From Thermoguttaceae bacterium (GTDB lineage: Bacteria > Planctomycetota > Planctomycetia > Pirellulales > Thermoguttaceae): a DNA stretch of 64,000 bases. The notes beneath the pieces were generated by a model, which saw nothing but the letters and a program-made list of their open reading frames with translations, ran no database searches and was not told the DNA's origin. This document shows, in pieces, positions 14,784-58,338 of this stretch (position 1 is its first letter; the number at the start of each line of letters is the position of its first letter). Made by a program: the position numbers and the translations under genes. The stretch is from NCBI GenBank assembly GCA_029975295.1, contig JARKPK010000082.1, forward strand, positions 1 through 64,000. The letters are read 5' to 3'.

Positions 14784-14925
14784 TTCCCTGCCCAGCGCTT
14801 TCGCGCCGGCGTGGGCCGCCTGCGGAAACCGGTGCGGGCGAGTGCGCGGGGTGCGGGCAATGCGCCGCGAGGTTCGGACGATCGCCCGAGCGGAACGGTG
14901 TTATCGTTGCGATGGAGAGTCGGTC

Positions 14926-16389
14926 ATGGGCAAAGAAGGCTTCACCGGACCCTTGGAACAGATCGACGAATGCACTTGGCGGATTCCGTCCGACTACAAG
15001 GCGGGAATGCGCGTCGAGGGGCGGATTTACGCCGATCATCGGCTCCTCGATCAGATTCGCTCCGATCAGGCGCCCGAACAAGTGGCCAACGTGGCCTTTC
15101 TGCCCGGCATTCAGCAGGCCAGCTTGGCCATGCCCGACATCCATTGGGGCTACGGCTTCTGCATTGGCGGCGTTTGCGCGACCGATCCCGAGGAGGGCGG
15201 AGTGATTTCGCCGGGCGGGGTGGGCTACGACATCAACTGCGGCGTCCGCCTGATTCGCTCGAACCTGCAATACGAAGAAGTCCGCCCCCGACTGAACCCA
15301 TTGATCGACGCGCTGTTCCGCCGCGTGCCCGCCGGTGTGGGCGAGGGCGGCGAGTACCTGTTCGGCGGCAGCGAAATGAAGGACCTGCTGCGCCGCGGGG
15401 CAGAACATCTGCGCGCCAAGGGCCTGGCCACGCAACGCGACCTGGAATTCACCGAAGCCGGCGGATGCCTGCCCGACGCCCGGCCCGAGTTCGTCAGCGA
15501 CCGCGCCCTGGCCCGCGGCGGCGACCAATGCGGCACACTGGGCTCGGGCAACCATTTTCTCGAAGTGCAGGTGGTCGAGGAAATCTGCGACCCGGCCGCG
15601 GCCGAGGCGATGGGCCTGACCCGCGGCTCGCTGGCGGTGATGATTCACTCGGGATCGCGCGGGTTGGGCTATCAGGTTTGCGACGACGCGCTGCGCGACA
15701 TGCGCGACGCTCCGCGACGGTACGGCATTTCGCTGCCCGACCGCCAATTGGTCTGCGCTCCGGTGCGCAGCGACGAGGGCCAACGCTACCTCGGCGCGAT
15801 GCGCTGCGCGGCCAACTTCGCCTGGGCGAACCGCCAGTTGCTCATGTGGCAAACACGCGAGGTGTTCGCCGAGTTCTTCGGCGCCGATTGGGAGCAGCTC
15901 GATCTGCAACTGGTGTACGACGTGGCCCACAACATCGCCAAGATGGAACGGCACGTGATCGACGGCCGCGAGAAACTGCTGTGCGTGCATCGCAAGGGTG
16001 CGACTCGGGCGTTCCCGGCCGGGCACCCCGAACTGCCCGAGGCCTATGCCCGGACCGGTCAACCGGTGATCATCCCCGGCGACATGGGCAGGGCAAGCTG
16101 GGTGTTGGCCGGCGAACCGGCGGCGATGGAAAAGACCTTCGGCACCTCCTGCCACGGCGCCGGGCGAGTGATGTCGCGCACCGCGGCCGTCGCCCATGCC
16201 CGCGGCCGCCGAATCGAACAGGAATTGGCCGATCGCGGGGTAGCCGCCCGATGCCGCCACTGGAAAGGCCTGGCCGAAGAACAGCCCGCCGCATACAAAG
16301 ACGTGAGCGTGGTGGTCGATGTGGTGCATCGGGCCGGGCTGGCCCGCAAGGTGGCACGGCTTAGGCCGGTTGGCGTGATCAAAGGCTGA
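14926..16389 (+). CDS. rtcB: RNA-splicing ligase RtcB
   Basis: The 487-residue enzyme joins 2',3'-cyclic phosphate (3'-phosphate) and 5'-OH RNA ends using GTP and Mn2+. Metal-binding motifs include GVGYDINCGVRL (Asp near 102, Cys near 105), GSGNHFLE near 205 and IHSGSRGLG near 240. The guanylylated His is in CHGAGRVMSR near residue 410. The ATG at 14926 has GGAGAG about 8 nt upstream and gives standard length. In bacteria RtcB repairs cleaved tRNA or rRNA, for example after toxin or stress damage. No RtcR regulator or RtcA is adjacent; only archease is. Confidence 0.95.
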   Translation: MGKEGFTGPLEQIDECTWRIPSDYKAGMRVEGRIYADHRLLDQIRSDQAPEQVANVAFLPGIQQASLAMPDIHWGYGFCIGGVCATDPEEGGVISPGGVGYDINCGVRLIRSNLQYEEVRPRLNPLIDALFRRVPAGVGEGGEYLFGGSEMKDLLRRGAEHLRAKGLATQRDLEFTEAGGCLPDARPEFVSDRALARGGDQCGTLGSGNHFLEVQVVEEICDPAAAEAMGLTRGSLAVMIHSGSRGLGYQVCDDALRDMRDAPRRYGISLPDRQLVCAPVRSDEGQRYLGAMRCAANFAWANRQLLMWQTREVFAEFFGADWEQLDLQLVYDVAHNIAKMERHVIDGREKLLCVHRKGATRAFPAGHPELPEAYARTGQPVIIPGDMGRASWVLAGEPAAMEKTFGTSCHGAGRVMSRTAAVAHARGRRIEQELADRGVAARCRHWKGLAEEQPAAYKDVSVVVDVVHRAGLARKVARLRPVGVIKG

Positions 16390-16453
16390 ACCTTGGGCGT
16401 TCGGCCGCCGAAAGCGCCGCAAGTGAAAGGCTCGCCCTGCCGTGGGCCGGGGC

Positions 16454-16552
16454 CAGTTGCGCTGCAGGCCGTCGACCACAACGTCTTAAAGCTGGCATCG
16501 TAGTGTTATCGCAACGGGTGGCAGGCCGCACACTGCAACGCAACCGGCTCCC
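16454..16552. repeat. 99-nt structured repeat, copy A
   Basis: This element matches 57852-57950 without gaps at about 73% identity. Terminal arms GTTGCGCTGCAG (16456-16467) and CTGCAACGCAAC (16533-16544) pair at 11 of 12 positions. It lies in the spacer between rtcB and the PEBP gene and has no conserved reading frame. Confidence 0.6.
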
Positions 16553-16620
16553 ATGGGCCGAGGTGCGCTTCAATCGAGTCGTCGCCCGTGGTACAACGAA
16601 ATCCAGGTGGGAGAAAACCG

Positions 16621-17238
16621 ATGAACCGGCGATTCCCGGCCGCCGTTGTTGCGGCGGCCGTTGCGTGGTTGGGAACCATGGGGTGCGGTCCGCGGGCGGC
16701 CGAGCGCGCCGCGCCGCCGGCCGGGCCGAAAGGCGTTCAAACCGAGGGGGTGCGAACCATGACCATCGAAATCACCAGCACGGCATTCAAGCAAGGCGAC
16801 CCGATTCCCAAGAAGTACACCGGCGAAGGCGCCGACGTTTCGCCGCCGCTGGCGTGGAAGAACCTGCCCGAAGGAACGAAGGAGTTGGCGCTGATTTGCG
16901 ACGATCCCGACGCCCCGACCGAAGAACCGTGGGTCCATTGGGTGATCTACAAGATTCCGGCCGGCGAGAAGGGCCTGCCCGAGGGCGTGCCGCGCGACCT
17001 GCGGCTGAAACAACCCGCCGGTGTAATGCAAGGGCGCAACTCTTGGCCGAAAGAGAACGTCGGGTATCGCGGCCCGATGCCGCCGCCCGGCCACGGCACG
17101 CACCGCTACTTCTTCCGGCTCTTCGCCCTCGACGGACATCTGACCATCGAGCCGGGCGCCACAAAAACCAAGCTGCTCGAAGAAATCCGCGATCACATTC
17201 TCGGCGAAGGGGTGCTGATGGGCACCTACGAACGCTGA
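16621..17238 (+). CDS. YbhB/YbcL family (PEBP-like) lipoprotein
   Basis: The 205-residue protein is a member of the phosphatidylethanolamine-binding/Raf kinase inhibitor-like superfamily. An N-terminal signal ending in LGTMGC is a lipobox-like site, with lipidation expected near residue 21. The PEBP core spans about 50-203, with DDPDAPTEEPWVHWV near residues 98-112 (ligand-site Asp and His), GPMPPPGHGTHRYFFRLFAL at about 155-174 and the C-terminal GEGVLMGTYER. Bacterial members have no firmly established reaction. The ATG at 16621 has GGGAG upstream and opens the signal peptide, so it is preferred over 16588. A second internal ATG at the start of the core (MTIEIT) would give a cytoplasmic form. 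Confidence 0.88.
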   Translation: MNRRFPAAVVAAAVAWLGTMGCGPRAAERAAPPAGPKGVQTEGVRTMTIEITSTAFKQGDPIPKKYTGEGADVSPPLAWKNLPEGTKELALICDDPDAPTEEPWVHWVIYKIPAGEKGLPEGVPRDLRLKQPAGVMQGRNSWPKENVGYRGPMPPPGHGTHRYFFRLFALDGHLTIEPGATKTKLLEEIRDHILGEGVLMGTYER

Positions 17239-57467: not shown

Positions 57468-57475
57468 CTTGCGAG

Positions 57476-57549
57476 TGGGCGGCATTGGACTCGAACCAAC
57501 GACTTCCACCGTGTGAGGATGGCGCTCTAACCAACTGAGCTAGCCGCCC
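57476..57549 (-). tRNA. tRNA-Val (anticodon CAC)
   Basis: The 74-nt cloverleaf on the minus strand has acceptor stem GGGCGGC/GCCGCCC, D-arm GCTC-AGTTGGTTA-GAGC, anticodon stem CCATC/GGTGG with loop CTCACAC, and T-arm containing GGTTCGAGTCC. The discriminator is A. The CCA end is not encoded. Anticodon CAC reads GUG (valine). A promoter lies upstream and a terminator directly downstream. Confidence 0.95.
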
Positions 57550-57730: not shown

Positions 57731-58338
57731 GGGGGCCGACAAGACCCCAAGTCCGTCTGTCCGTCTGAAGGCTGTTGAGGGCGGTTGAAAACGGCGGTGG
57801 CAGGCGGCCGAAAACGGGCTGCGCAGAAATGGGAATGCCCCCGGGGAAAGGCAGTTGCGTTGTTGGGCCTCGATCACAACTCCTTGAAGCTACAGTCCCA
57901 TGGCTATCGCGGCGGGTAGTGGGCCACACGCCACAACGCAACCGGCTCCCCCAGGGGCGGTTGCTCGGGCGGCAGTTGACGACCGCAACGGAGCGAGCGA
58001 CGGACGATGGCGTTGCCTGGTCCTCGGCTCGGCGAGGAAGAATCGTTCTGGGCGATTCGATCTCTTGCTGCGAGAATGGTTTACGCCGGCTGCACTTCGA
58101 TTGACCTGGCCGTTTCGGGCAACTATGCTGGGCAAAGCGCCTTTTGGGAACCGGGCAAGAGGCCCGAGAGGGTGATTTGAGAAGCAGATCGTGGCGGCGG
58201 TCGTGGTGCCGCGATTCGCGCGAGTGCTGCGGATAGCGGCTGGTGCGTTTGAAGTGCGGCCGCGGTCGATCCGATTGCACACCGTTGCTGTGCCGTTTGT
58301 GTGGGACTGCTGAGCGTCAACCGCGGGAGGTTTTGGGC
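57731..58338. other. Spacer containing repeat copy B, otherwise no gene
   Basis: The stretch holds the 99-nt structured repeat at 57852-57950. No reading frame with a ribosome-binding site and family likeness is present. The right end supplies the ribosome-binding site of the downstream oxidoreductase gene. Confidence 0.4.
57852..57950. repeat. 99-nt structured repeat, copy B
   Basis: This is the partner of 16454-16552. Terminal arms 57854-57865 and 57931-57942 pair at 11 of 12 positions. The tenth pair is T-A here and C-G in copy A, a compensatory difference. Confidence 0.6.

Follow-up and report, generated by a model that had tools for sequence, protein, structure and literature searches.

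Rickettsia palindromic elements are about 100 bp long, palindromic and able to enter coding genes. Type II MITEs, as a review describes them in its passages on this class, resemble autonomous insertion sequences (ISs) at their ends only and carry direct repeats that decay with age; in the same passages, MITEs are given as typically AT-rich and as lying mostly outside genes (PMC10969869). Among autonomous elements, IS1272, which has been put in the IS1182 family, is reported in the account cited here to replace a stem-loop and to make no target duplication (PMC5678879).

The window, by which we mean the whole stretch of 64,000 nucleotides that was analysed, holds a repeat that we identify as a type II MITE; the family is new, its kind well known. 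Among the titles and abstract openings listed for openly licensed papers, we found no account of this 101-bp MITE family or of MITEs in Pirellulales. The initial annotation had reported two structured stretches of about 73% identity, and this is borne out: positions 16454-16552 and 57852-57950, each a stretch of 99 bases, match without a gap at 72 of 99 positions, the chance of an equally good pair anywhere in the window being about 1e-10 (binomial estimate with a base match of 0.28). The stem of 12 positions is likewise present in both copies and paired at 11 of 12, with left arms GTTGCGCTGCAG and GTTGCGTTGTTG; it begins 2 bases inside the left end of the 99-base stretches and finishes 8 bases before their right end. 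While the 99-base stretch is real, its coordinates were slightly off, for the element itself spans 16450-16551 and 57848-57948, limits that are set by the terminal repeats and the flanking duplications. The statement that neither copy lies in a gene holds as well, in that no recognised gene contains copy 1 or copy 2: seven mechanical open reading frames overlap them, and none has a Pfam match (E ≤ 0.001). Copy 1 has two gene neighbours, RtcB at 14842-16389 (PF01139), whose best hits place the organism near Pirellulales, and a gene for a phosphatidylethanolamine-binding protein at 16621-17238 (PF01161); a tRNA-Val(CAC) gene is found at 57475-57549, some 300 bp from copy 2.

Copy 1 (16450-16551, plus strand) consists of 101 bp followed by an additional C (16551) that precedes the right duplication; it was aligned to the 101-bp family consensus, and its profile match covers 16451-16550 (E 7.3e-22). 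The left terminal inverted repeat (16450-16465, plus strand) is GGGCCAGTTGCGCTGC and agrees with the right arm at 13 of 16 positions, and the right one (16535-16550, minus strand), GAGCCGGTTGCGTTGC when read inward, agrees at 15 of 16 with the consensus end GAGCCGGTTGCGTTGT. The target duplications, which have no strand, are CGTGGGCCG on the left (16441-16449) and CATGGGCCG on the right (16552-16560). These match at 8 of 9 positions once the right end is shifted by one base, a shift that was picked after inspection of the flanks, and the pair is weak on its own because only 4 of 9 positions match without it. Copy 2 (57848-57948, plus strand) is 101 bp long and aligned to the family, with a profile match at 57849-57948 (E 6.5e-19). 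Its left terminal inverted repeat (57848-57863, plus strand), AAGGCAGTTGCGTTGT, agrees with the right arm at 13 of 16 positions; the right one (57933-57948, minus strand) is identical, read inward, to the consensus end. Its duplications, CCCCGGGGA at 57839-57847 and CCCCAGGGG at 57949-57957, match at 7 of 9 positions with no shift.

Copies 1 and 2 are members of a dispersed family. In the window's own genome (G000; 5.0 Mb, 190 contigs), 13 places were found with copy 1 as the query, 17 with the consensus as the query, and 17 rows, all distinct, with a sequence profile of 45 copies. In a genome from another genus of the same family (G029), the profile gave 73 rows, which amount to at least 49 distinct places when the two strands of the palindrome are counted once. 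Since 150 candidates were scored per genome (from 1827 in G000 and 958 in G029), at least 17 and at least 49 places are lower bounds. The genome-wide search for relatives that had been suggested as a check has returned more than random matches. A third, partial copy lies on the window's own contig, just beyond the window (G000:C103:73060-73147).

Among the 119 genomes of the same family, BLAST matches occur in G000 and G029 only (up to 7 candidates being scored in each genome), and the profile gave no match in G028 and G030, congeners of G029, with 150 candidates scored in each. In G085 the profile found six matches, all of them weak (E 1e-5 to 5e-4; 150 candidates scored). BLAST across the 396 genomes of the order, 2 candidates being scored in each, gave G000, G029 and partial hits in G165 and G391; the G391 hit (L152) is regarded as chance. 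With so few candidates scored per genome (7 or 2), weak members may be missed, as those of G085 were. Plasmid records gave no match to copy 1. The distribution of the 101-bp element is patchy, as for mobile DNA.

When copies are aligned and oriented, the unit is 101 bp long, with 16-bp terminal inverted repeats that are exactly complementary in the G029 consensus; the consensus ends read GAGCC..GGCTC. The consensus of each of the two genomes is an imperfect palindrome that folds end to end. The detailed measurements come from a set of 45 hand-picked, non-duplicate loci whose matches span at least model positions 8 to 90; the half copy C108 (L016) and the diverged copy C145 (L018) were left unlisted, and L127 was dropped by coverage. 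In this set, element length ranges from 90 to 111 bp and G+C content is 58.8%. Mean pairwise identity is 0.797 among 32 G029 copies, 0.766 among 13 G000 copies and 0.64 between the genomes.

The flanks show how these copies arrived. Across the 45 copies, the 9-bp flanks match at 61.7% of positions, where shuffling the right flanks between copies gives 26.5% (z 15.3), and every other flank length from 3 to 13 gives z of at most 4.9, the runner-up being 10 bp (z 4.9). Copy by copy, the 9-bp match is at least 6 of 9 in 26 of the 45, perfect in 4, and at most 3 of 9 in 11. Twenty further places, added later, include the truncated copy L214 and the diverged copy L215, both of which were counted, as well as L197, which is the same as L173, seen earlier but outside the 45-copy set. 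There the 9-bp flanks agree at 59.4% of positions and at 30.6% when shuffled, with none of 3000 shuffles as high, and three places match at all nine positions; for the six places in G085 taken by themselves, the observed and shuffled figures are 53.7% and 35.3% (8 of 3000 shuffles). Repeated insertion with a 9-bp staggered cut is thereby shown. The duplications match at 62% and the copies among themselves at 77-80%, a comparison from which we draw no inference on selection, since misplaced ends depress the 62% figure.

An empty site is available for one insertion. The copy at G000:C185 splits the reading frame of a transposase gene, which we take, from its motif, to be of the IS3 type, and joining its flanks with a single 9-mer restores an uninterrupted frame (..NAAMERFIRSFKHEWTNHQRF..). 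A natural uninterrupted version occurs in the same genome (G000:C156:3-254), gapless at the junction and with one 9-mer, TGGTCGTTG; it aligns to the joined flanks with a score of 437, against 385.5 with the element retained, and the alignment has a 21-base gap about 60 bases from the junction, elsewhere in the gene. A more diverged uninterrupted version, in G006, is likewise better aligned without the element. The MITE is found at the same position in two copies of this gene, at G000:C185:2745-2845 and G000:C129:21406-21504, whose flanks are identical at 112 of 150 and 140 of 150 bases without gaps, and for this reason the insertion is probably older than the split of the two gene copies.

What enzyme could have moved an element without a gene? 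The end pattern, with at most one mismatch, was matched in 51 of the 396 genomes of the order, with 39 sites in G029, 24 in G002, 13 each in G000 and G229, and 5 each in G001 and G401, while the control, the pattern reversed, matched 0 to 2 times on each strand of a genome. Twenty end-bearing stretches were retrieved, and three of these, from G044, G001 and G401, contain full elements. The G044 element (L160, 549-2409) is 1861 bp long, its ends matching at 14 of 15 and 15 of 15 positions, and is flanked by a perfect 9-bp duplication (GTGGACCAA/GTGGACCAA). The G001 element (L156, 523-2476; 1954 bp) has both ends at 15 of 15 and a duplication at 6 of 9, and the G401 element (L172, 587-2404; 1818 bp) has each end at 14 of 15, its right flank being lost at the contig end. 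The long open reading frames of L160 and L172 match DDE_Tnp_1 (PF01609) and DUF772 (PF05598) above the cut-offs. Their best NCBIfam model is IS1182 (NF033551), at 110.2 and 81.4 bits and hence below its cut-off of 270, followed by IS5 (NF033581), at 72 and 57 bits against a cut-off of 140; since it falls under both cut-offs, the partner transposase is placed in an outlying subgroup. The L156 transposase, on the minus strand and without stops, is 74% identical to that of L160. A transposase of the IS256 type (PF00872) had been considered as the partner and was found in none of three genomes.

At E ≤ 1e-20, this transposase is found in 7 of the 119 family genomes, G001 and G002 among them, and is absent from G000 and G029, the MITE-rich genomes. 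No searched genome combines the 101-bp MITE with an intact transposase; the nearest case is G085, with its six weak MITE copies, whose congener G086 has the transposase. A full-length partner was also sought in G000 and G029 through isolated ends; those retrieved, a part of the matches listed, looked by eye like matches arising by chance, like copies that are truncated or diverged, or like short variants. In G229, three contigs (C49, C313 and C331; L167-L169) end about 125 bp inside an insertion-sequence end, and two of the three are identical in sequence, a pattern like that left by the assembly collapse of a multi-copy element.

The similarity between the MITE and these ISs is confined to the ends. 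When MITE copies are compared with the autonomous elements by BLAST, the 25 best hits listed all touch an end, over 16-30 bp, and interior-only hits number 45 for 45 queries at E ≤ 1, which is about chance; the interior thus does not appear, by sequence comparison, to derive from the autonomous elements in any way that we can see. Because the autonomous elements share the ends, and BLAST similarity is found only there, the 101-bp element is a type II MITE. The other traits of that class are present too: a length below 500 bp without a coding gene, terminal inverted repeats, a duplication of fixed length and multicopy dispersal.

Several related elements were seen along the way. Two are longer, with related ends and other interiors: one of 206 bp at G000:C90:30316-30521 (L139) and one of 136 bp at G085:C558 (L174 603-738), the latter with a flank match of 7 of 9. 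At G000:C169:14752 (L137 7253), the 25-base sequence GAGCCGGTTGCGTTGCAACCGGCTC is two element ends overlapping, with no interior. A single-copy palindromic element in G165 (L151 1465-1577; G165:C56:7554-7666) has other terminal repeats (TTGTGAATTTTTTGC..) and matches the MITE core over 46 bp at 80% identity, with E 4.2e-5 for one genome where 396 were searched. The interior core (TTGAAGCTAGCATC..GATGCTATCGCAA..) might itself be a unit exchanged between MITEs with unrelated ends, which we consider unlikely; were it true, the core may serve some separate function, such as maintaining the hairpin or providing a binding site for a host factor.

We propose, with a probability of roughly 0.94, that the gene-less 101-bp element was moved in trans by the transposase of an autonomous IS with the same ends. 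An autonomous IS of 1.8-1.95 kb, with one IS1182/IS5-like DDE transposase of about 480 amino acids, would supply the enzyme in trans; the transposase would bind the ends and move the 101-bp unit, and repeated rounds would spread it through the genome, after which each copy would drift alone. The hairpin would then be a by-product of the end-to-end palindrome borne by the copies that spread. On the strength of the shared ends, the transposase lineage of the same-ended ISs may well have done the moving; its role in G000 and G029 is one that we infer, since the gene was not found there. The source IS may later have been lost from both genomes, or it may be hidden in unassembled repeats. Movement appears to have ceased in G000 and G029, and the copies look like relics, because the transposase is absent from these two genomes at the threshold given above. 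The copies have diverged from one another, which suggests that the burst was old. The initial annotation had offered a palindrome-ended mobile fragment as one of two readings, and it is this one that the dispersed family, the terminal inverted repeats, the 9-bp duplication, the empty site and the autonomous elements with the same ends uphold. The result is a MITE family in Pirellulales that is linked to an insertion-sequence lineage through its ends and its duplication length, and annotators can mask its copies and avoid calling them RNA genes.

The other reading was selection for a folded RNA, that is, a conserved regulatory element or small RNA kept in many copies in the genome. Some observations lean this way. 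Thirteen copies folded singly give stable hairpins on either strand, a result obtained without a shuffle control; RNAalifold predicts 26 pairs, 5 of them changed on both sides, in the first 12 copies; and the cells of the terminal stem that are changed on both sides number 9 against 5.6 shuffled (44 of 500 shuffles), the sole measure of five to lean toward covariation. The RNAalifold signal is gone in the larger set, where 45 copies yield no predicted pair (alignment gaps may contribute), and of the cells that make up the 16-bp terminal stem in that alignment, 84.8% are paired, against 84.4% shuffled. If the arms are taken to change independently, pair by pair in the consensus hairpin, 8.3 compensating two-sided changes are expected among the 32 G029 copies and 10 are seen, beside 166 one-sided changes that break a pair; for the 13 G000 copies the figures are 9.0 expected, 11 seen and 61 pair-breaking. 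Compensating changes are therefore about as many as independent drift of the arms would produce, single changes that break pairs are many, and the further covarying pairs that had been named beforehand as the test of an RNA do not appear beyond that drift. The compensatory change noted at the outset, C-G in one copy and T-A in the other, is true of the two window copies but unremarkable once many copies are counted; since covariation is not above expectation, we attribute it to independent drift. The case shows cleanly why such a change, seen when two copies of a palindromic mobile element are compared, is no evidence of an RNA under selection. Rfam has no gathering-score match near either copy besides the tRNA-Val, and the target duplications and the empty site speak of insertion, not of vertical retention. 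Selection for a folded RNA is thus largely refuted, and we hold it to be very unlikely.

Movement by a transposase would also be expected of a REP/REPIN-type repeat, for which the enzyme would be a single-strand (Y1, RAYT) transposase. The element is indeed a short palindrome in many copies, and REPs occur in Planctomycetes according to the cited paper, whose definition, as far as it is drawn on here, describes units of 20-40 bp with a GTAG or CGTC tag, whereas our unit is about 101 bp and its consensus end has neither tag (PMC3733652). The 9-bp target duplication is present, moreover, and the autonomous elements with the same ends encode a DDE transposase. Y1 transposases are not known to make a target duplication, and an origin as a REP or REPIN seems extremely improbable. 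The repeat might instead be a duplicated fragment of a protein-coding gene, one frame reading ..ALDHNFLKPASQ.. by eye. In 17 of the 45 copies this forward frame stays open from one end of the element to the other, and at least one of the six frames is open in 37; it is, however, closed in 28, any single frame is open in 22 copies at most, and an open frame of 33 codons is not unusual. Lengths of 90 to 111 bp, palindromic ends and target duplications, together with the lack of a Pfam family in the overlapping window reading frames, also count against a gene fragment, to which we give next to no credence.

How does this MITE compare with the systems described so far? Like REPs and REPINs, it is a short palindrome in many copies, and it departs from the cited definition of these in length, tag, duplication and DDE partner (PMC3733652). 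The IS1182 and IS5 insertion sequences (NF033551, NF033581) are close to its partner, whose transposase matches both models and carries PF01609 and PF05598, yet scores below both cut-offs, including that of IS1182, the best-scoring model. A further difference from IS1272, as the cited account presents it, is that the element here gives a 9-bp duplication (PMC5678879). With the Rickettsia palindromic elements it shares a length of about 100 bp, a palindromic form and entry into a coding gene; the difference is that the in-gene copy at C185 disrupts the frame in which it sits. The element also resembles the prokaryotic type II MITEs, such as ERIC, Correia, Chunjie and QMITE, which, in the review's description of them, are below 500 bp and multicopy, with terminal inverted repeats of 4-30 bp, decaying direct repeats and similarity to ISs at the ends only; from these, the 101-bp element differs in a G+C content of 58.8%, where the review speaks of AT-rich elements, and in its host group, the Pirellulales (PMC10969869).
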